A DNA stretch of 64,000 bases from Acidobacteriota bacterium (GTDB lineage: Bacteria; Acidobacteriota; Blastocatellia; HR10), in contig JAUQQC010000003.1 of NCBI GenBank assembly GCA_030550025.1, positions 225,464 to 289,463 on the forward strand, read 5' to 3'. This document shows positions 33,437 through 51,856 of the stretch, piece by piece; positions within the stretch are counted from its first letter, which is position 1; each line of letters begins with the position of its first letter. The translations under genes were made by a program, and so were the position numbers. The notes beneath the pieces were generated by a model. It did no database searches and was not told where the DNA came from. It saw nothing but the letters and a program-made list of their open reading frames with translations.

Positions 33437-34435
33437 ATGGACCTCGCGGGGAAGCGAGTTCTGGTCACCGGCGCGACGGGCTTGATCGGCGGACGGCTGA
33501 TCGAGCGCCTCCGGGAGCACTCCAATGTCTCGATCCGCGCGCTCGTGCGCGATTCGACGAAGGCCGACCGACTTCAAGCGCTCTCGGTCGAGATCGCCAC
33601 AGGAGACATCACGCGTCCGGAGACGCTCCCGGAGGTCCTCGCTGGCTGTCACGTCGTCGTCCACTGCGCGGCCCGCGTCACCGAGCGAGGGTCGTGGGAG
33701 GAATTTTGGCGAAGCAATGTCGAAGGCACGCGCCATGTGCTTGAGGCCGCGGCCCGCGCCGGTGTGGAGCGCTTCGTGCACGTGAGCAGCGTCGCCGTCT
33801 ACGGGATTTTCCCCAAGGATCACACGGATGAATCCTCCCCCTACCAGCCCTGCGGGAATGCCTACTGCGATACGAAGATCGAGGCCGAGAAGGTCGCGCT
33901 CGAATATTTCCGGCATCGTGGCGTACCGCTCGTCATTGTGCGCCCGGGGATCGTCTACGGTCCGCGCTCCCAACATTGGACGATTCGCATCATCGAACTG
34001 CTGAAGGCGAATCGCTTGTTCCTCCTCGGTCGCGCCGATGGATTTTGCAATCACGCTTACGTGGATAATGTTGTGGATGCCCTCCTGCTCGCGATGACGA
34101 ACGACGACGTCGTGGGGGAGGCCTTCATCATCACCGATGGACGGGCGACAACCTGGAGGGAATTCTTCGGTCACTACGCGCGGATGCTCGGTCGAAATGC
34201 GATCCCGCAACTTCCGGCGGCGCCGGCGAAGGCGCTGTTGCGATTCGTCGGATGGGCCGCTCGCGTGCGCGGCCATCCCCCGCCGCTCAGTCCGAAGGTC
34301 GTAGACTATCTGCAGCATCGCGCGTTGTTCCGAATCGAGAAGGCGAAGCAACGCCTCGGCTACGCTCCACGCGTCTCGCTTGAGGAGGGAATGCGCCGCA
34401 CGGAAGCGTGGCTGCGCGAGGCGGGATATCTGTGA
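33437..34435 (+). CDS. NAD-dependent epimerase/dehydratase (extended SDR)
   Basis: A 332-aa Rossmann enzyme: nucleotide motif VTGATGLIGGRL, catalytic YxxxK in AYCDTKIEAEK, and VRPGIVYGPRSQHW. The C-terminal region (RFVGWAARVRGHPPPLSPKV) resembles the 3-beta-hydroxysteroid dehydrogenase/isomerase-like branch more than nucleotide-sugar epimerases, so the substrate is open. ATG follows AGGAGGAAGG. The Mut7-C gene begins 9 bases after its stop. Confidence 0.88.
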   Translation: MDLAGKRVLVTGATGLIGGRLIERLREHSNVSIRALVRDSTKADRLQALSVEIATGDITRPETLPEVLAGCHVVVHCAARVTERGSWEEFWRSNVEGTRHVLEAAARAGVERFVHVSSVAVYGIFPKDHTDESSPYQPCGNAYCDTKIEAEKVALEYFRHRGVPLVIVRPGIVYGPRSQHWTIRIIELLKANRLFLLGRADGFCNHAYVDNVVDALLLAMTNDDVVGEAFIITDGRATTWREFFGHYARMLGRNAIPQLPAAPAKALLRFVGWAARVRGHPPPLSPKVVDYLQHRALFRIEKAKQRLGYAPRVSLEEGMRRTEAWLREAGYL

Positions 34436-35770: not shown

Positions 35771-36661
35771 ATGCGACCGCGAATCCTTCTCTCCGCGATC
35801 CTCGCTTTTGGTCTCTCTCTCCCCCTGGCTCGACAAATCCCTCCTCCCCAACCGATCTCGGAGGAGGGTTGGGTGCTCGTCAACGTGCTGGTCGGGAACG
35901 TGGATGAGGATCCCGAGCTGGAATATCTCGTCCTCTTGCGCAAGATCTCGCGAGAGGAAGGCGACGGCCTCCGCATTCGCTTCTTCGACTTCGATGCATG
36001 GTCGCGGACGTGGGTGCCGACGGAGATCACCAACGAAAGTCAGGAGAGCGAATCCCGACTCTTCCCCTTGGAGACGCAGGTGACGCTCGAAGACGTCACG
36101 CGCGACGGCCGGATGGAGATCATCCTTCGTCCCCGAAGGCCCTCGACGCTACCGAACGGCACCAGTGGCTTGGTGATCCTGGCCAAGCGCGGGCGATACC
36201 TGCACCAGCTCTTCGCCGCCTGGGAAGGGGAACCCGAGTTGAGAGACCTCGATGGCGACGGGATCATGGAGATCGTGCTTCACGCGGAATACGCGGATCC
36301 AATGGAGCCGGGAGCTCCTGTGCTCTATCCGGCGCAGGTCTTCGCCTATGAAGAGAACACTTTTCGCCGCGTGCCGCTTCGCCGATATACTGCCCATTTC
36401 GCCGAATTCGCCAGCGCTGCGCGCACCGAGTATGAGACGCTCAAGCACCGATTAAGCAAGCAGCCCATGACTGACCGCGATCACCCCGCGCTCTTTCGCG
36501 CCATCGCCCGCGTGTTGCTCGCTCTCCGCACACAGGAAGACCTGGAGCGGATGCGCGCCTATTATCTGGCCGAACGCCCGTGGCTTCAGCAGCGATTACC
36601 CATGCCATATCTCCAAGCCCTGGACGACTTGATCAAGCCGGTGACGCTTCTGAAGCGGTGA
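35771..36661 (+). CDS. Secreted protein with FG-GAP/VCBS-like repeats
   Basis: A 296-aa exported protein: signal peptide RILLSAILAFGLSLPLARQI, then two aspartate-rich loops (NVLVGNVDEDPELEYLVLLR, LRDLDGDGIMEIVLHAEYAD). These are typical of beta-propeller blades of the FG-GAP or VCBS type and probably bind Ca2+. The C-terminal quarter is helical. No function recognised. Its last 29 bases overlap the 3' end of the convergent ABC ATPase gene. Confidence 0.75.
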   Translation: MRPRILLSAILAFGLSLPLARQIPPPQPISEEGWVLVNVLVGNVDEDPELEYLVLLRKISREEGDGLRIRFFDFDAWSRTWVPTEITNESQESESRLFPLETQVTLEDVTRDGRMEIILRPRRPSTLPNGTSGLVILAKRGRYLHQLFAAWEGEPELRDLDGDGIMEIVLHAEYADPMEPGAPVLYPAQVFAYEENTFRRVPLRRYTAHFAEFASAARTEYETLKHRLSKQPMTDRDHPALFRAIARVLLALRTQEDLERMRAYYLAERPWLQQRLPMPYLQALDDLIKPVTLLKR

Positions 36662-37592
36662 CAGCGTCCTCGAAGAATCGTTCCAACGAACTCCGAATAG
36701 GGTTTACGGCGATCACGCACCCGCCGGATCGCCGGATGAAGTCCACCGCCTCCCATCCATTGGCCGACGCCGGCGCGCAGACGCGTACCAGAGCGCGATC
36801 GGCGCGGACGTCGCATCCTCGCGCGCGAAGCGATTCGCACGTCTGCGGGGTGAGATCCCGCGCGAGGATCTCTACGGCCCCTCGTGCGGTCGGCGGGGCG
36901 AGCTCCGCCGGCGATCCGCACGCTAACAAGCGCCCGCGATGAAGGAGCGCCACGCGATCGCAGATGATCTCCGCCTCCGCGATCAGCGGCGTGCTGAGGA
37001 AGATCGTCCTCCCCTCTTCGCGCCACCGGAGCAGCCAATCGCGCACCTGGCGCCGTCCTTCAGGATCCAATCCTCCAAACGGATCATCCAGGATGAGTAG
37101 CTTCGGATCATGGAGCAAAGCTTGCGCCAGTCCAACGCGCGCAAGCTCGCCCCGCGAGAGTTGCCGCAGTGGTCGGTCGGCGACCGACGCGGGAAGCCCG
37201 ACCTGATGCAACAGAGCGGCTGCTCGCGCCAAGCGATCCGAACGGGAGAGGCCGCAGAGCTGCCCGAAATAGTCCAAGAGTTCGCACGCCGTCAAAGCCT
37301 CCGGGAGATAGGGATGCTCCGGTAAGAATCCGAGCTGCGCGCGCACCACGGGGTCTTCCGGCGAACGCCCAAAGAGACGAACGGTCCCGGCTGTTGGCCG
37401 AATCAATCGCAGGAGGAGTTTGACCGTCGTCGTCTTCCCCGCGCCATTGGGACCAAGCAAACCAAAGATCTCCCCCTCCTGCACTTCCAAGGTCAAGTGA
37501 TCCACTGCGCGATGTCGCCGGTGACCGAGCCATCCGCTCGCGTAATCCTTCGTCAAATTTTCGACGACGATGACCGCCAACCGAGCACTCAT
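36633..37592 (-). CDS. ABC exporter ATP-binding protein with altered catalytic residues
   Basis: A 319-aa NatA/CcmA-like ATPase. The Walker A is intact (GPNGAGKT, residues 47-54) and the signature is LSRGE (145-149). Two catalytic positions are unusual: Walker B reads LLILDDP, with Asp170 for the catalytic Glu, and the H-loop reads STPLIAEAE, with Pro202 for the switch His. A C-terminal domain of about 85 residues follows. Its ATG overlaps the TPR gene's stop codon (ATGA). With the permease and TPR gene it forms an exporter just downstream of a pilin gene, resembling PilH in the pilGHI set. Confidence 0.88.
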   Translation of the reverse strand: MSARLAVIVVENLTKDYASGWLGHRRHRAVDHLTLEVQEGEIFGLLGPNGAGKTTTVKLLLRLIRPTAGTVRLFGRSPEDPVVRAQLGFLPEHPYLPEALTACELLDYFGQLCGLSRSDRLARAAALLHQVGLPASVADRPLRQLSRGELARVGLAQALLHDPKLLILDDPFGGLDPEGRRQVRDWLLRWREEGRTIFLSTPLIAEAEIICDRVALLHRGRLLACGSPAELAPPTARGAVEILARDLTPQTCESLRARGCDVRADRALVRVCAPASANGWEAVDFIRRSGGCVIAVNPIRSSLERFFEDAVTASEASPA

Positions 37593-38461
37593 AATCGCGG
37601 AAGGATCAGGGGCGACTGTGCGGAGAGGTGCACTGCTCCCGTCGTCGAATCCAATTGGTACGGGTACCCCAGGGGGTCTCGCGGGGGATGCTTCAACATG
37701 CCCGAAAGGATAAGCTCCTGCCAGGAAGCCGGCCACCGCCCGCGCTCTCGCCAAAATGCGCGCACAACCTCATGCAAGCGCTCCAACTCTTCTTCGGCTT
37801 GAAGACAGAGAAGCTGATATCGCGCGTTCTCCCGCACTTGCTCGCTCTCGCCGTGCTCGAGGCGATCTCGCCAGATACGTCGCGCGATCTCGCGACGGCC
37901 CGCGCGTGCGTAAGCGGCAGCGGCCAAGTCCCGCGTCCACGTGGGAGCCCGCGGATGCCGACTCACTTGCAGGAAGACTTCAGCCGCCTTCGCATAATCG
38001 CGCACGTCCCACAGCAGGACGAATCCCTTGTCGAGCAGCAGCCGCCATTCCCCAGGATTCGTCGCAATACCTCGATCTAAAAGCGCCAGCGCACGATCCG
38101 GCCGCCCCGCCCCCTGCGGCGGTGGAAGCGCGAGGAAGATCGCCCCAAATCGATATGCCGCGAGAAAGTGCGGGTCCAACGTCGTCACCAACTCGAGCAA
38201 GGCGTCCAACTGCTCAAATCGCACTCCGGGGCGAAAGGCGCGCCGTCCGTAGTAGTGCACCGTGCGCAGCCAATAGAGGTCGGCCAAGAGGCCTTCGAAT
38301 CCGAAGCTCCATCGCTTGAGGGTCGCCGCGGAAGGCAGCCATAAGACTTCGTCCTCCCGCTGATACGCGGCGACTCGTTCTTCCAAGCGTTGCCCCAGCT
38401 CGACGACTCCCCCGATCGCGAGCACGAACAGAGCACCGATGATCGCCGATGGGCCCTTCAT
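37589..38461 (-). CDS. Membrane-anchored TPR protein with pseudopilin-like C-terminal tail
   Basis: A 290-aa protein. The N-terminal anchor helix (SAIIGALFVLAIGGVVELGQ) is followed by TPR-like helices over residues 60-230 (DRALALLDRGIATNPGEWRL, DYAKAAEVFLQVSRHPRAPT). The last 55 residues (GRWPASWQELILSGMLKHPP, then RDPLGYPYQLDSTTGAV) closely follow the GspG-type pseudopilin ending, a DPWGNPY-like motif. It overlaps both neighbours by 4 bases (ATGA). The tail suggests that it mimics or contacts pilins, which fits the pilin gene upstream. Confidence 0.78.
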   Translation of the reverse strand: MKGPSAIIGALFVLAIGGVVELGQRLEERVAAYQREDEVLWLPSAATLKRWSFGFEGLLADLYWLRTVHYYGRRAFRPGVRFEQLDALLELVTTLDPHFLAAYRFGAIFLALPPPQGAGRPDRALALLDRGIATNPGEWRLLLDKGFVLLWDVRDYAKAAEVFLQVSRHPRAPTWTRDLAAAAYARAGRREIARRIWRDRLEHGESEQVRENARYQLLCLQAEEELERLHEVVRAFWRERGRWPASWQELILSGMLKHPPRDPLGYPYQLDSTTGAVHLSAQSPLILPRL

Positions 38462-39315
38462 CGAAATTCCCGCCGATGGAACACGATCGCCGCCAGGACG
38501 AACACCACGACGAGATAAAGTCCAACATAGGCCGAAGCCATCCCGATGATCGAAGGGACGACCTCTCGCCCATGAACAACAGCAGCCGTGAGATTCAAAT
38601 TCTGCATGTTCGGGAGCACATAGTAGAGCGCGCGACACAGCAGCGCCAGCAGCGGGGAGCGAACGACCTCTGCCCATTGCAGGAATTCTCGACTGGCATG
38701 CCCGATGAGGACAAGACCGAGGGCGGAGAGCATCGAGAGTGCGGATGTGGAGAACGTTGAGAACAAGAGGGCGAGGGCCATCGCCATGAGGAACTGAAGC
38801 CAAAGGAGGAATACTACAGGGATCAGAAGCGGAAGCTCCTCCTTCCAAGGTCGCCCCATGGCGGTGAGGGTGAGTGTGAGTCCCCCGGTCATCACCACCA
38901 CACTCGCGAACAGAAGGAGGGCCCCACCGAGCAGCTTGCCGAGAAGCACCTCCCACCGCCGAACGGGCTTCGTCAACAGGACGTAGATCGTTCGACGCTC
39001 GATTTCCCGCTCAAGCAGCCGGACGCCAAGGACGATCGCCATCGCGATTCCCAGCACCCGAATCGCCCCGAGTCCCACATCGAGCACGATCCGGCGCTCC
39101 TGGCCAACGGACAGCTCGCCCAGCAAAAGCGCCGTGCCGATCAGAAGCAGGGCAAAGCCGGTGAGGATATAAAGGATGCGCTCTCGAAGCAGCTCGCGAG
39201 ACGACGCAAGAGCTACGGCGGTGATTCGTCTCACTCCAGAGAAGCGGGCCCACGTGAGCGACGAAACGATCATGACTTCCGAAGCCGCCGACACTCTCTC
39301 ATGAGCCGCGGTCAT
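38458..39315 (-). CDS. ABC-2 type permease of the pilin-linked exporter
   Basis: A 285-aa inner-membrane protein with six hydrophobic helices (ILYILTGFALLLIGTALLLG, LLGGALLLFASVVVMTGGLT, LYLVVVFVLAAIVF). The cytoplasmic segment LEREIERRTIYVLLTKPVRR is typical of NosY-like ABC-2 permeases. The start may be ATG 39315 or 39273. It is first in a three-gene unit with 4-base overlaps and lies 127 bases after the pilin gene. Partner of the ATPase; PilI-like by position. Confidence 0.85.
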   Translation of the reverse strand: MTAAHERVSAASEVMIVSSLTWARFSGVRRITAVALASSRELLRERILYILTGFALLLIGTALLLGELSVGQERRIVLDVGLGAIRVLGIAMAIVLGVRLLEREIERRTIYVLLTKPVRRWEVLLGKLLGGALLLFASVVVMTGGLTLTLTAMGRPWKEELPLLIPVVFLLWLQFLMAMALALLFSTFSTSALSMLSALGLVLIGHASREFLQWAEVVRSPLLALLCRALYYVLPNMQNLNLTAAVVHGREVVPSIIGMASAYVGLYLVVVFVLAAIVFHRREFR

Positions 39316-39442
39316 CGTCCGCAGCCACGCGCAGGATTATGGTCCCAAGTGAGGATGTTCTTCTCGCGACAGTCACGCTCTCCGGATAGCCGCTGAACGT
39401 CGAATCCTTGCCAGAGCGTCTCGTCTCTCGGCGAGCGCTAAC

Positions 39443-39934
39443 TCACTGCACGGGGCGCGCGTCCCCCGGTTTGGAGAGAACCCCATTGCTCGCTGAGAAC
39501 GCTCCTGTCGAGGATTCGTAGATCGTGCCGCTTTGATCCGTGCCGAAGTATCGAGTCCCGGTCGAGCCCGGAGCCGTCGGATGCAATTCGGCCGCGTACC
39601 CCGTCCCCAAGCCATTCGGCGCATCGCCCGTATCGGCTGCGCTCCCTTCGTATCCGGATCGTGCGACCGGTGCTCCCTTCGCGCCGAAAAGCTCCGCGAG
39701 ACTCTCGGAGATCTCCCCACTGGCGAGCAAGTCGGCGGGATCACCGTAGAGGTTATTGTGCGAGATCGAGAAGCTGAGCTGCGCTTGATTGTAGGCCCGG
39801 AGATTGGCGATGGCCGCCGTCTCGTTAGCCGGGATGCGAATGCGCGTGAATCGCGGGATCGCGATGGCCAGGATGATGCCGATGATCGCGATGACGATCA
39901 AGAGTTCAATGAGTGAGAATCCCCGTTCGCGCAT
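39443..39934 (-). CDS. Type IV pilin-like protein
   Basis: A 163-aa prepilin. The class III leader MRERG is cut before FSLIELLIVIAIIGIILAIA, giving mature Phe1 and the conserved Glu5, followed by the hydrophobic assembly helix. The globular part is Gly/Ser/Ala-rich and has no cysteine pair. Its end (YFGTDQSGTIYESSTGAFSA) resembles other acidobacterial pilins. A run of AGGAGG motifs precedes the ATG. It lies between a TPR gene upstream and the ABC exporter downstream. Whether it is the major pilin or a pseudopilin is undecided. Confidence 0.88.
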   Translation of the reverse strand: MRERGFSLIELLIVIAIIGIILAIAIPRFTRIRIPANETAAIANLRAYNQAQLSFSISHNNLYGDPADLLASGEISESLAELFGAKGAPVARSGYEGSAADTGDAPNGLGTGYAAELHPTAPGSTGTRYFGTDQSGTIYESSTGAFSASNGVLSKPGDARPVQ

Positions 39935-40026: not shown

Positions 40027-41253
40027 TCACGGTCGCTTCCGCTGTCCTCTCCTCTGCTCCTCGAGGAACTGTGAGAAGGCGGCGATCATCTCGTTGGCCT
40101 GCTGCACCTGATTGGCGCGCTGCGGATCGCTCTTCGCCTTCTCGACGAATTGCTTCAAAATAGTCAGCGCCTCCGGATACTTCGACGGATCGGGAGACTG
40201 CGCGAGCGCATTCCCCAGACCGAAGAGGGCATCAAGGCTGTTCGGATCGATTTCCAGGGCCTTCCGATACGCAGCGACAGCCTCCTCCGACTTCGCCGTA
40301 TCGAGATAGATCTTGGCGATCTGCGCTTGCGTGCGCGCGCGATCCGCCGGCGTCGTTTGCATGGCCAGCAATTCCTCGTGCGCGGAGATGGCCTCGGAGA
40401 GCCGCGCCGGATCCAAATACGTCGCCATGACCGCCAGCGAGCGACAGAGCACTCCGTGATACTCAGGCTTCTGCTCCGGCTTGTCCTGAGGGATCATCGA
40501 GATCGCCTTGCGGGCCGTCTCGATGGCGAGGTTGAACGCCTCCTTGGCTTCCTCCCGCTGCCGATTGTTGAAGCGCTCCACGCCGAGATTATGATAGGCC
40601 TCGGCCATGCGAATCAGCACGACGTAGAGCTGAGGGTGATCCGGGCTCGCCTCTAAGGCCGACTTATAAAGCGGGATCGCCTCCTCATACTTCCCAGCGC
40701 GCGCCAGCTCGTTGGCCGCGTTGAACTGCCGGATCATCTCCTCATCTCGCGCCGCTCGCTTGCGTTGCTCCTCGATCTGTCGAGCTTGCTCTTCCAAACG
40801 CTTCCGCTCGGCCTCGGTCACTTGCGGCACAACCGCTCCAGCTTGTCCCGAACGCGCGGCAGCCTGTTGCACCTCCTCCAGCGTCGGGCGTCGTCCATCT
40901 CCGGGGACCATCTCGATCGTGCGCCGCAACGTCGCCTCTCCCGGAGGCGGAATGCGCACGTTGTACTCGTAATAGGGCGTTAACCCTTCGCCCGAGACGA
41001 TGATGGCATATCGCCCATACGGGAGACCGATGTGAGCGAAATGCCCCTTCTTGTCCGTCTTCGTTTGATACTTCCCCTTGACGTCCAGCCGATACAACTC
41101 CACAAGCGCATTAACAGCCGGAACGCGCGACCCATCCGGTCGCACGACGATGACTTCCCCCTCGATCCCTGCCGTCTGCGCGCTCACATCGAGCAAAAGG
41201 CCGAGAGCACTACCCACCGCGAGGAAACCGAGAAGCGCGAGTATTCGTTTCAT
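40027..41253 (-). CDS. Exported TPR protein with carboxypeptidase-regulatory domain
   Basis: A 408-aa protein: signal peptide (ILALLGFLAVGSALGLLLDV), one beta-sandwich domain at residues 28-115 (GIEGEVIVVRPDGSRVPAVN, GLPYGRYAIIVSGEGL), a charged helix rich in Glu/Arg/Gln, then four to five TPRs (residues 175-390; FNAANELARAGKYEEAIPLY, AYRKALEIDPNSLDALFGLG). The ATG follows GAGGAGGTGGG. It is directly upstream of the pilin gene on the same strand, so a role in pilus assembly or surface export is plausible but inferred. Confidence 0.88.
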   Translation of the reverse strand: MKRILALLGFLAVGSALGLLLDVSAQTAGIEGEVIVVRPDGSRVPAVNALVELYRLDVKGKYQTKTDKKGHFAHIGLPYGRYAIIVSGEGLTPYYEYNVRIPPPGEATLRRTIEMVPGDGRRPTLEEVQQAAARSGQAGAVVPQVTEAERKRLEEQARQIEEQRKRAARDEEMIRQFNAANELARAGKYEEAIPLYKSALEASPDHPQLYVVLIRMAEAYHNLGVERFNNRQREEAKEAFNLAIETARKAISMIPQDKPEQKPEYHGVLCRSLAVMATYLDPARLSEAISAHEELLAMQTTPADRARTQAQIAKIYLDTAKSEEAVAAYRKALEIDPNSLDALFGLGNALAQSPDPSKYPEALTILKQFVEKAKSDPQRANQVQQANEMIAAFSQFLEEQRRGQRKRP

Positions 41254-49379: not shown

Positions 49380-49394
49380 AAGCGGTTGACCAGC

Positions 49395-50909
49395 ATGCGC
49401 GAGAGCGCCCGTCACGAAGCGTTGCGCCCTGACGTCTGGGAGCGCGCCTTCTACAGAGGCTCGATCGCTTGGATCGGCGCGCAGGTGTTGGTGCGCGCTG
49501 TCAACTTCTTCGCCGGGATCGCGCTCGCCCGCTGGCTCATGCCCGAGGATTTTGGACTCATGAGCTTAGCTCTCACCGTGACGACGCTCATTGCCCTTTT
49601 CGGAAATGTAGGGATCGAGCATTATCTCGTCTATCATCCCGAGGAGCATTCGGAAGTCCTGACGGCGGGGTTCTGGCTCGGCGTGATTATAGGCCTTGGT
49701 CTCTTCGCGCTTCAAGTTACGGCCGCCCCCGTGATCGCCGGGTTCTACGGTCGCCCCGACCTCGTTCCTATCCTCCTCGCTTTGAGCCTCACGTTGTTGA
49801 TCGCCCCGTGGGGGAGCGTACATGCGGCGCTTTTGCGCCGACGCTTGGAGATCGGAAAGCTCGTCCGGCCCCAAGTCGCGACGACGCTCATCGGGACGGG
49901 AATCGGTCTCGCTTTGGCGCGCGCCGGAGCTGGCGTGTGGAGCTTGGTCGTGCCTTTCGTCATCGCCGCCCCTATCACGGTGGCATGGAACTGGAAGCTT
50001 TGCTCGTGGCGCCCTGCGTCTCGTTGGTCTCCTCGGTCGTGGGGAGCGATCATCCGCTACGGGCGGCATGTCCTCGGTAACGATCTGACCGCCTACGCCA
50101 TGCAAAACGCCGATTACATCCTCATCGGAAAATGGCTGGGCGCATTGCCCTTGGGCTTTTACACATTCGCTTATAACCAGAGCATGATGCTGCCCACGCT
50201 GCTCATGGGCGCCTTCTCGCACGTCGCCTTCCCGATCTTCGCGCGGCTGCGCGAGAGGTCGGCCGAGCTGCGGGCGATGTATCTTCGATTCGCGCGAACG
50301 AACGCGGGGATCGCAATCCCTCTGCTCCTTCTCCTCCTCGTCGCTGCTCCGGAATACGTGCGCGCCATTTACGGAGAGAAATGGGCGCCCGCCATCTTTC
50401 CATTCCAGCTACTGCTCCTCCACGCCATCGGGCGATGCCTGATGCTCGGAGCCGGAGAGCTATTCAATGCCATCGGACGTCCCGATCTCAACCTCAAATG
50501 TGCGCTCGGTGCCGCCCCCGTCTTCGTCGCGGCCGTTGCCATGAGCCTGCGATGGGGGATCGCGGGCGTCTCCGTCGCGACGGCGCTCGTCTTCCTGGGC
50601 CTGGCGGGAGTCATCATCGCGATCGCTTTTCGCACGCTTCGATGGAAGCCCTCGGATTTCTGGACGGCCATGCGCCCCGTCGGCCTCACGGCGGGAAGCG
50701 TCTTGCTCACGATGGGGCTGCTTCGCCGAGTCCTCGAATCGCTCGCGCTCCCACCGTGGCAAATGCTCGTGGCGCTCCTTCTCGGAGGGGGGATCATTCA
50801 CGCGCTCGCTCTGACCATCCTCTTCCGCCCAGAACTGCGCGAGCTGAAGAACCTCGTGCTCGCCCGCCACACGGAGTTCGATGATCAAACGTCGGCGAGT
50901 GACCGATGA
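49395..50909 (+). CDS. Polysaccharide flippase (Wzx-like, MOP superfamily)
   Basis: A 504-aa membrane protein with about 12-14 helices. The opening (GSIAWIGAQVLVRAVNFFAG, ARWLMPEDFGLMSLALTV) is typical of O-antigen or exopolysaccharide lipid-linked unit flippases. It contains an internal LGNDLTAYAMQNADYILIGK repeat start. The ATG lacks a ribosome site. It ends with an ATGA overlap into a glycosyltransferase, forming a two-gene polysaccharide operon. Confidence 0.9.
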   Translation: MRESARHEALRPDVWERAFYRGSIAWIGAQVLVRAVNFFAGIALARWLMPEDFGLMSLALTVTTLIALFGNVGIEHYLVYHPEEHSEVLTAGFWLGVIIGLGLFALQVTAAPVIAGFYGRPDLVPILLALSLTLLIAPWGSVHAALLRRRLEIGKLVRPQVATTLIGTGIGLALARAGAGVWSLVVPFVIAAPITVAWNWKLCSWRPASRWSPRSWGAIIRYGRHVLGNDLTAYAMQNADYILIGKWLGALPLGFYTFAYNQSMMLPTLLMGAFSHVAFPIFARLRERSAELRAMYLRFARTNAGIAIPLLLLLLVAAPEYVRAIYGEKWAPAIFPFQLLLLHAIGRCLMLGAGELFNAIGRPDLNLKCALGAAPVFVAAVAMSLRWGIAGVSVATALVFLGLAGVIIAIAFRTLRWKPSDFWTAMRPVGLTAGSVLLTMGLLRRVLESLALPPWQMLVALLLGGGIIHALALTILFRPELRELKNLVLARHTEFDDQTSASDR

Positions 50910-51856
50910 GCGGAGTCGTCTCCATCGTGATCCCGACGCGCAACGCCGGACCGGAATTCCCCGAGTTGCTCGAGCGCCTTCTGGCGCAACGCTCTTCCTT
51001 CTCTCTCGAGATCATCGTGATCGACTCCGGCTCCACGGATGGGACGGTCGAGCGCTGCGCTCGGTTCCCCGTGACGGTCCTCACGATCCCGCCGGAGGAC
51101 TTCGACCACGGTGAGACTCGAGATCGCGCGATCCGTTACGCTCGTGGCTCTTTCATCGCTCTCTTGGTGCAAGATGCCCTGCCAGCGAACGAATGGTGGT
51201 TGGAACGACTCCTCGAGCCAATGCTTCAAGATGCCACCATCGCCGGAGCGTATAGCCGTCAGATCCCCCGCCCTGGAAGTGATGCGTTCGTCCGACGGCA
51301 TGTGAGCGATCACGTCGCCTCACGTTTGGAGCCACGCCGGCAAAGGCTCGACGATCCGAGGGCTCTCCCCGCCATGCCCCTTGAGGAGAAAATCGCGCTC
51401 TTCAGTTTCGACAACGTCTCGTCGGCAATCCGACGGTCCGTGTGGGAGCGATTCCCGTTCGGACGCGCCGCTTTCGGAGAAGACATCCGCTGGGCGAAGC
51501 GGGTCATGGAGGCCGGTTATGCGATCTATTACCAACCCGATTCGGTCGTCATCCATTCGCATGATCGCTCGGCTTGGTACGACTTCCAGCGTTTCGTCGC
51601 AAGCTATCGCCTGTATCAGGAGCTGTTCGGCGGCGATCCTCCTTCGCTCTGGTTCACCCTATTCAACGCCATCCCCTACAACATCTATGCGAATCTCTTT
51701 AAGCTCCCCCACGAACGGATGACGCCGCGCGTCATCCTTAAAGCCATCACGAAAGGGCTCGCCTTTCCCCTCGGGCGCTATGTGGGCCATCGCGTGGGGA
51801 GAGATGCGCCGCATTGGCGGCAGCGCCTTGGCGATTGGCTCACCCGCGGGATTTAG
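50906..51856 (+). CDS. Family 2 glycosyltransferase, rhamnosyltransferase-like
   Basis: A 316-aa GT-A enzyme. Nucleotide-sugar motifs: VIPTRNAGPEFPELLERLL, VIDSGSTDGT, and LLVQDALPAN, the TQDA-type variant of the DxD site seen in rhamnosyltransferases. The acceptor-side motif GEDIRWAKRVMEAGYAIYYQ is present. A dTDP-sugar nucleotidyltransferase (62.7 kb) could supply its donor pathway. Coupled to the flippase gene; its 3' end overlaps the convergent gene by 17 bases. Confidence 0.88.
   Translation: MSGVVSIVIPTRNAGPEFPELLERLLAQRSSFSLEIIVIDSGSTDGTVERCARFPVTVLTIPPEDFDHGETRDRAIRYARGSFIALLVQDALPANEWWLERLLEPMLQDATIAGAYSRQIPRPGSDAFVRRHVSDHVASRLEPRRQRLDDPRALPAMPLEEKIALFSFDNVSSAIRRSVWERFPFGRAAFGEDIRWAKRVMEAGYAIYYQPDSVVIHSHDRSAWYDFQRFVASYRLYQELFGGDPPSLWFTLFNAIPYNIYANLFKLPHERMTPRVILKAITKGLAFPLGRYVGHRVGRDAPHWRQRLGDWLTRGI

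Follow-up and report, generated by a model that had tools for sequence, protein, structure and literature searches.

Introduction

The pilAGHI genes of Myxococcus xanthus (MXAN_5783-5780) place three families, a tetratricopeptide repeat (TPR) protein, an ATP-binding cassette (ABC) ATPase and an ABC-2 permease, next to a type IV pilin. Published work gives their order as pilA-G-H-I in one operon and annotates PilG merely as an ABC accessory factor (PMC3546991); deletions of pilG, pilH and pilI are counted there as pilus-minus (PMC3724824), and deletion of the pilGHI cluster is described as causing defects in social (S-) motility and exopolysaccharide (EPS) that can be complemented (PMC5544727). 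Here we analyze a stretch of 64,000 nucleotides from an Acidobacteriota bacterium of the class Blastocatellia (contig JAUQQC010000003.1, positions 225,464 to 289,463; hereafter the window), in which the same three families again lie beside a type IV pilin. We propose that they are PilI, PilG and PilH, that PilG very likely ends in a pseudopilin-type headpiece and, with more reserve, that the system handles pilins.

GldA and GldF of Bacteroidota gliding are an ABC-2 ATPase and permease needed for surface motility. They are not known to have a TPR or headpiece partner, and the window ATPase, whose second NCBIfam match is GldA, scores far under the GldA cut-off (157 versus 402.6 bits). In Geobacter sulfurreducens, the ABC ATPase XapD (GSU1501) is encoded five locus tags from pilA, and insertions in it are reported to impair growth on electrodes (PMC5585712).

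Identity of the permease, TPR protein and ATPase

Open reading frames and Pfam matches place the pilin, ABC-2 permease, TPR protein and ABC ATPase 5' to 3' in a row on the minus strand, from 39934 to 36633, with ATGA overlaps between permease and TPR genes (38461-38458) and between TPR and ATPase genes (37592-37589). An initial annotation of this DNA had given the same four genes, coordinates, order and single strand as well as the two 4-base overlaps, all of which are borne out.

Genome contigs scanned with M. xanthus PilA yielded 44 loci (the Myxococcus scan), including that of M. xanthus AM003 (L176). Behind pilA, this locus encodes a TPR-family protein, an ABC ATPase, an ABC-2 permease and, by eye, a prepilin peptidase, which we take to be PilD. 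Profiles from the window's phylum match the first three at 1.7e-40 (TPR), 4.0e-104 (ATPase) and 5.5e-57 (permease, PilI). The best hit of the window ATPase in the M. xanthus genome, assigned by its coordinates to the PilH of L176, reaches 208 bits with the next at 163, and M. xanthus PilH in turn finds the window ATPase at 206 bits with the next at 166. The ATPases are reciprocal best hits, and the orthology of PilI rests on profile score and adjacency. Because the gene after pilA in AM003 belongs to the same TPR family and has the same tail, the window TPR protein is identified as PilG, an identity overlooked in the initial annotation; its label 'PilGHI-like' can be sharpened to PilGHI through the reciprocal best hits and the TPR and permease profiles. 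Judged from sequence, orthology of the window trio to PilI (permease), PilG (TPR protein) and PilH (ATPase) appears close to certain.

The PilG of M. xanthus likewise has an N-terminal transmembrane (TM) helix, a TPR region and the same headpiece. It differs in carrying 28 residues past the headpiece match, and its operon in running TPR-ATPase-permease after pilA. The TPR protein was found in 29 of the 44 PilA-fetched loci, with the order TPR-ATPase-permease in 20 and TPR-permease with the ATPase upstream on the other strand in 7 (one of which prints as permease-TPR, its frame being read stop to stop); the remainder comprises one TPR-ATPase pair at a contig end and one TPR-permease pair without an ATPase in view. 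A profile of window PilG and the 29 Myxococcus-scan proteins (A4) matched 89 of 97 genomes of the M. xanthus phylum at 1e-3, with 86 at 60 bits or above. Among the 24 of 121 candidates scored in the M. xanthus genome, whose PilG is itself part of A4, it matched PilG and one tail-only protein. A locus titled Comamonas sp. KCTC 72670 (L189) carries a myxobacterial-type pilA-pilGHI cluster, and this assembly is probably mislabelled or contaminated.

A GspG-like tail on PilG

The initial annotation had described the end of the TPR protein as GspG-like, naming a match to pseudopilins as the test, and had quoted the motif RDPLGYPYQLDSTTGAV, which is found at residues 261-277. Sequence profile, genome search and modelled fold now agree on this point. 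Past the TPRs, the loci of the window's class and phylum show a helix, a G-R-x-P-x-S-L-x-x-L stretch and the pattern P-x-D-P-x-G-x-P-Y-x-Y-D-x-x-T-G-x-V. Pfam and NCBIfam scans of the lone TPR protein did not see the tail, and window PilG did not match the NCBIfam GspG equivalog (TIGR01710) at E up to 1, but profiles built from many homologues detect it.

When A2, a profile built from 36 tails of the window's phylum, was compared with 177,635 PDB sequences, places 1-8 all went to pseudopilins of the GspG type, with E from 2.6e-4 to 3.1e-3; in seven of the eight, the best-scoring stretch spans just 19-21 residues. The first unrelated match appeared at E 0.021. A2 matches 97 of 107 phylum homologues, including 62 of the 72 outside its building set, and 28 of the 29 Myxococcus-scan proteins (L197 is missed), with M. 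xanthus PilG, which is not in A2, at 7.9e-11; none of 816 reversed or shuffled controls was matched. From a six-frame search of 58 genomes of relatives with A2, the 39 best non-PilG matches were fetched (L313, taken from the weaker rows, is not counted). Pfam N_methyl is carried by 36 of them, and 30 satisfy a stricter prepilin pattern, with the tail match beginning 31-44 residues after the signal.

AlphaFold2 modelled the whole of PilG at a pLDDT of 90.5, with a TM helix (4-35), the TPR helices, a helix at 207-240, a second at 247-252 and a hairpin (268-270/277-279), and the tail alone at 87.4. In the 50 Foldseek rows listed for the whole model, TPR proteins and other helical repeats took every place. 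A model of the isolated tail was therefore searched separately, and ranks 1-9 were then pseudopilins and pilins. In a second alignment of 108 Foldseek chains (VIA-align 2), the tail superposes on GspG (3gn9) with a Z of 8.5 and a root-mean-square deviation of 2.1 over 79 residues; 14 of the 15 rows at Z of at least 3.9 are pseudopilins or pilins, row 10 is a maltose-binding protein (MBP) fusion of a pilin, and the best unrelated chain reaches Z 2.8. On major pseudopilins the alignment begins near residue 21-27, i.e. the C-terminal half of alpha-1 and the head are kept and the hydrophobic N-terminal half is absent.

The PilG tail is thus very probably homologous to the head of GspG and pilins, and a pseudopilin tail is, as the profile matches indicate, a general property of PilG. 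With GspG (PulG, EpsG) it shares the C-terminal half of alpha-1, a short helix, the LPxDPxGxxYxY stretch and a beta hairpin. It differs in lacking the acidic, glycine-rich C-terminal loop, which in GspG is the calcium site, and in that the head is placed behind a TPR domain. The tail, which starts at residue 207 behind the TPRs, has neither a class III signal nor a hydrophobic polymerisation helix; without this signal and the filament-packing N-terminal half of alpha-1, PilG is not a pilin but carries a pilin head.

Charge bias places the N-terminus inside in 85 of the 107 phylum homologues (reverse in 7, ties in 15), and more weakly in the Myxococcus-scan set (inside in 15, reverse in 9, ties in 5; n = 29). 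An N-terminus inside would make the TPR domain and the headpiece periplasmic. The initial annotation had stated that pilG, pilH and pilI adjoin pilA and are needed for pili in M. xanthus, in accordance with PMC3546991 and PMC3724824. Among the passages of the open literature covered by our searches, none presents PilG as having TPRs or as resembling a pilin; as far as these searches show, PilGHI and its requirement for pili are known from M. xanthus, and the architecture of TPRs plus pilin head is not described.

Conservation, gene order and pilin neighbourhood

A homologue of the TPR protein is present in 49 of the 58 genomes of relatives, the window's own counted, and a PilH homologue at 1e-50 in 52, with none in the other 6. 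Across 149 genomes of the phylum, a profile of the TPR protein (A1) matched in 133 at E 1e-3 and reached at least 68 bits in 91; the rows under 68 bits look like generic TPR matches. In the window's genome, A1 separates the window gene (1.3e-98) from the next match (2.0e-6) among the 15 of 40 candidates scored. A plasmid search gave no match.

We compared 47 loci of the window's class with 60 of other classes, the latter taken from the stronger A1 matches. The order permease-TPR-ATPase occurs in 31 of the 47 class loci (the ATPase of L071 being 3.8 kb farther along), the others showing permease-TPR (14) or TPR-ATPase (2, both at contig edges). In the other classes, ATPase-permease-TPR is found in 58 of the 60 loci and the TPR gene alone in two, one of them at a contig end. 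The three commonest orders (class, other classes, Myxococcus) are rotations of one circular order, and the initial annotation's remark that the gene order is unlike that of Myxococcus holds in this form, as permease-TPR-ATPase versus TPR-ATPase-permease.

Of the 40 class loci with enough sequence, 19 have a pilin-like reading frame upstream on the same strand at a distance of up to 3 kb, as do 16 of the 49 such loci of other classes. From 435 N_methyl matches in the 58 genomes (289 Mb), chance would yield about 0.09 pilins in 40 loci, a large contrast that is given without a p-value, the loci being related and the pilins detected in two different ways (neighbours by prepilin pattern and hydrophobicity, background density by Pfam N_methyl). 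In the Myxococcus scan, whose loci were fetched by PilA, the distance from the PilA match to the start of PilG is no more than 300 bases in 22 of the 29 loci. Conserved synteny with pilins, on which the initial annotation had staked its interpretation beforehand, is thus seen in the class loci and, together with the match of the tail to pseudopilins, supports that interpretation overall, namely a dedicated ABC system for pilin export or pilus assembly. The docking of the tail on pilins that it also suggested is a more tentative proposal, as is export of anything by the ABC part.

Given the spread of homologues, the recurrent order and the tail-profile matches, the four-gene arrangement is confirmed to be more than chance. 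This bears on the possibility that a generic drug-efflux-type ABC-2 transporter lies near the pilin by coincidence and that the tail has a widespread fold of no consequence. The best NCBIfam match of the ATPase is indeed drrA, well under its cut-off and ahead of GldA, a neighbouring pilin is absent at many loci, and the headpiece is present in other proteins too. Against this stand the reciprocal best hits of PilH, the shared PilG with the same tail, the conservation of the trio across two phyla and a pilin proximity far over the background density, and we regard such a coincidence as highly improbable.

The rest of the pilus machine

The window pilin, whose nearest NCBIfam family is typeIV_PilA_Myxo (1.1e-13, under that family's cut-off), is one of three N_methyl matches in its genome. 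A cluster on contig C21 comprises two N_methyl matches, a secretin, a T2SSE ATPase with an MshEN domain, one T2SSF and a T2SSM_b, and presumably assembles the window pilin. Two T2SSE ATPases exceed the cut-off, the second of which adjoins two T2SSF matches and is probably Tad-type; the labels PilB/GspE and Tad are putative. In this genome, which is 98.7% complete, PilT was not found, in contrast to M. xanthus, and PilM had no convincing match, the one weak PilM_2 match lying in a gene that we take to be FtsA. Beside the C21 T2SSF, a protein of 292 residues (L074:13307-14185) may bear another head of the GspG type; its N-terminus, GYALLALIAAM, is pilin-like but degenerate, and it contains the stretch GRYPSSLEELV.

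Operon layout and neighbouring features

The features of the window considered here are collected in Table 1. The 408-residue gene preceding the pilin, absent from the initial annotation, has an equivalent position in six loci of the same order (L054-L059) and one weak match (L069) among the other class loci searched, and by this distribution is probably a lineage-specific neighbour.

Table 1. Positions of the operon, of PilG segments and of neighbouring genes in the window.
Feature	Position	Strand	Evidence and remarks
408-aa protein with carboxypeptidase regulatory-like domain and TPRs	40027-41253	minus	Pfam; upstream of the pilin
Type IV pilin/prepilin, 163 aa, ERGFSLIELL signal	39443-39934	minus	Pfam N_methyl E 1.6e-8
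Predicted PilI orthologue, ABC-2 permease, 285 aa	38458-39315	minus	Pfam ABC2_membrane_2 4.5e-15; later start possible
Predicted PilG orthologue, 290 aa (TM helix, TPR domain, GspG-like headpiece)	37589-38461	minus	Pfam TPR_14 2.4e-5, profiles, model
PilG N-terminal TM helix, residues ~6-22	38396-38446	minus	hydropathy 2.4, charge bias
PilG TPR helices, residues ~83-203	37853-38215	minus	TPR_14 at 118-144, model helices, TPR proteins in Foldseek
GspG-like pseudopilin headpiece, residues 207-290 (long helix, short helix, beta hairpin)	37592-37843	minus	profiles, model
Motif RDPLGYPYQLDSTTGAV, PilG residues 261-277	37631-37681	minus	aligns with the GspG LPxDPWGxxYxY stretch
Predicted PilH orthologue, ABC ATPase, 319 aa	36633-37592	minus	Pfam ABC_tran 5.6e-28; reciprocal best hit
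Polysaccharide flippase-type protein	49386-50909	plus (opposite to operon)	
Family 2 glycosyltransferase	50906-51856	plus (opposite to operon)	4-base overlap with flippase
Epimerase-family gene	33437-34435	plus (opposite to operon)	

Discussion

Based on these comparisons, we consider it reasonably probable that the operon combines a type IV pilin with a dedicated PilGHI ABC complex that handles pilins. The simplest reading of a TPR arm that reaches into the periplasm and ends in a pilin head would be a handler, driven by ATP, that acts on pilins or on the pilus base. In such a mechanism, PilG would reside in the inner membrane, its TPR domain and headpiece on the periplasmic side, an ABC-2 motor would consist of two copies each of PilI and PilH, and ATP turnover would move PilG. 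The headpiece would then stand in for a pilin beside membrane pilins or the pilus base, and subunits would thereby be freed from the membrane or passed to the assembly platform. That the headpiece of PilG itself carries out the pilin-handling step is suggested by its homology, with doubt slightly outweighing belief. More doubtful still is a specific version, in which PilG acts as a tethered pilin surrogate whose head, on its TPR arm, is repeatedly presented by the ABC-2 motor, pulling pilins from the membrane lattice or nucleating or capping the filament base.

In the proposed mechanism, pilins would be made and inserted by other means, and PilGHI would render them assembly-competent and not transport them as a classical export substrate. 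That PilGHI exports a pilin or minor pilin as a genuine ABC substrate, be it across the inner membrane or into it, is, in our judgement, quite unlikely. The window pilin carries a class III signal of the ordinary kind, pilins of other bacteria are inserted by the signal recognition particle and Sec without such a system, and PilI, a small ABC-2 permease with 5-6 hydrophobic segments, differs from the known peptide exporters. The genes nevertheless adjoin pilA, and the M. xanthus literature (PMC3724824) words the system as 'essential' for pilin translocation across the inner membrane, citing Wu 1998.

The main rival to pilin handling is polysaccharide export, in which PilHI would export a polysaccharide or lipid-linked glycan (EPS or a pilin glycan), PilG would be an adaptor to the pilus base and the link to pili would be indirect. 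ABC-2 permeases commonly carry glycans and lipids, and the glycan genes of the window keep this reading alive. However, these genes lie on the opposite strand, the flippase and glycosyltransferase at least 8 kb away with UvrD, UbiE and others in between, the flippase is an exporter in its own right, and a pilin-like head would be unexpected in a plain glycan exporter. XapD near the pilA of G. sulfurreducens is described as an exporter of biofilm polysaccharide (PMC5585712, PMC4974642), and the M. xanthus pilGHI deletion has its EPS defect (PMC5544727). In the same organism, though, the Walker-A allele pilB-WA is described as restoring EPS to single pilG, pilH and pilI deletions (PMC3724824), and EPS can therefore exit without PilGHI, which is thus not the EPS exporter of M. 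xanthus. Overall, we judge glycan export to be unlikely.

Several observations weigh against a role of PilGHI in pilin handling, or against the importance of the head in it. Without PilT and a convincing PilM, the filament of the window's organism is not a textbook type IVa pilus. A pilin within 3 kb upstream is missing in 21 of the 40 class loci and in 33 of the 49 other-class loci. No ATPase stands behind the permease-TPR pair in 14 of the 47 class loci (at L053 because the contig stops within it), and a strong PilH homologue is found elsewhere in 13 of these 14 genomes (L036, L041, L043, L046, L060, L062, L063, L065, L067, L075 and L078-L080). On the structural side, the models rest on alignments of 30 sequences, the Foldseek E-values of the tail are weak (best 0.6), and VIA warns that a Z around 8, or higher for helical models, can reflect a common arrangement; we count the structural match because the top ranks belong to a single family, the one that the sequence profile also finds.

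The tail is moreover missing or unrecognised in 10 of the 107 homologues with the ABC genes mostly kept, and the headpiece is therefore not indispensable everywhere. It is absent from five of the six loci of one class family and from three loci of two other families that have head-bearing members, the ABC genes being retained. Either such loci can do without the head or a different protein provides it. PilG ends right after the TPRs in eight loci (L038, L049, L053, L068, L073, L131, L132, L133), with permease and adjacent ATPase in all (that of L053 cut by the contig end). A separate tail gene was sought at nine tail-less loci and none was found in eight; at L132, a frame of 409 residues about 7 kb away has a tail match at 9.5e-4. 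In L167, the TPR-family frame continues, by eye, into a nuclease-like domain in the place of the headpiece.

Heads also occur in other contexts. Secondary A4 matches in the M. xanthus phylum are mostly tail-only, and all 18 that were fetched have a GspG-type head. A prepilin signal is evident in just two of them (L257, L260). Another 12 are short proteins with a membrane anchor in which no such signal was seen, and the remaining four, of about 400 residues, have no evident pilus link. Hence the headpiece is, to judge by these matches, a travelling module that occurs outside pilins. The 12 small proteins (L246-L251, L254-L256, L258, L259, L263) have frames of 139-225 residues. The four longer ones (L252, L253, L261, L262; about 395-413 residues) have the look of cytoplasmic regulators, with the GspG-like head at the end and an N-terminus that we take to resemble DUF4388. 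In the window's own genome, L313 (C22:7015-7203) is a frame of 320 residues with a zinc-ribbon-like start, several TM segments and a GspG-like head at the end, the head matching NCBIfam GspG at 8.5e-4; frames of 300-432 residues with tail-profile matches recur in the window's genus.

A pilin head that PilG has kept both in Myxococcus and in the window's phylum makes the role of PilGHI directly testable. The headpiece also provides a sequence marker that separates true PilGHI from the many ABC-2 paralogues. In lineages beyond the proteobacterial models that have been studied most, building pili may depend on an ABC motor. If PilG does act as a pilin surrogate, this would represent ABC-driven chaperoning of filament subunits in at least two phyla, a step absent from the standard Pseudomonas and Neisseria models.

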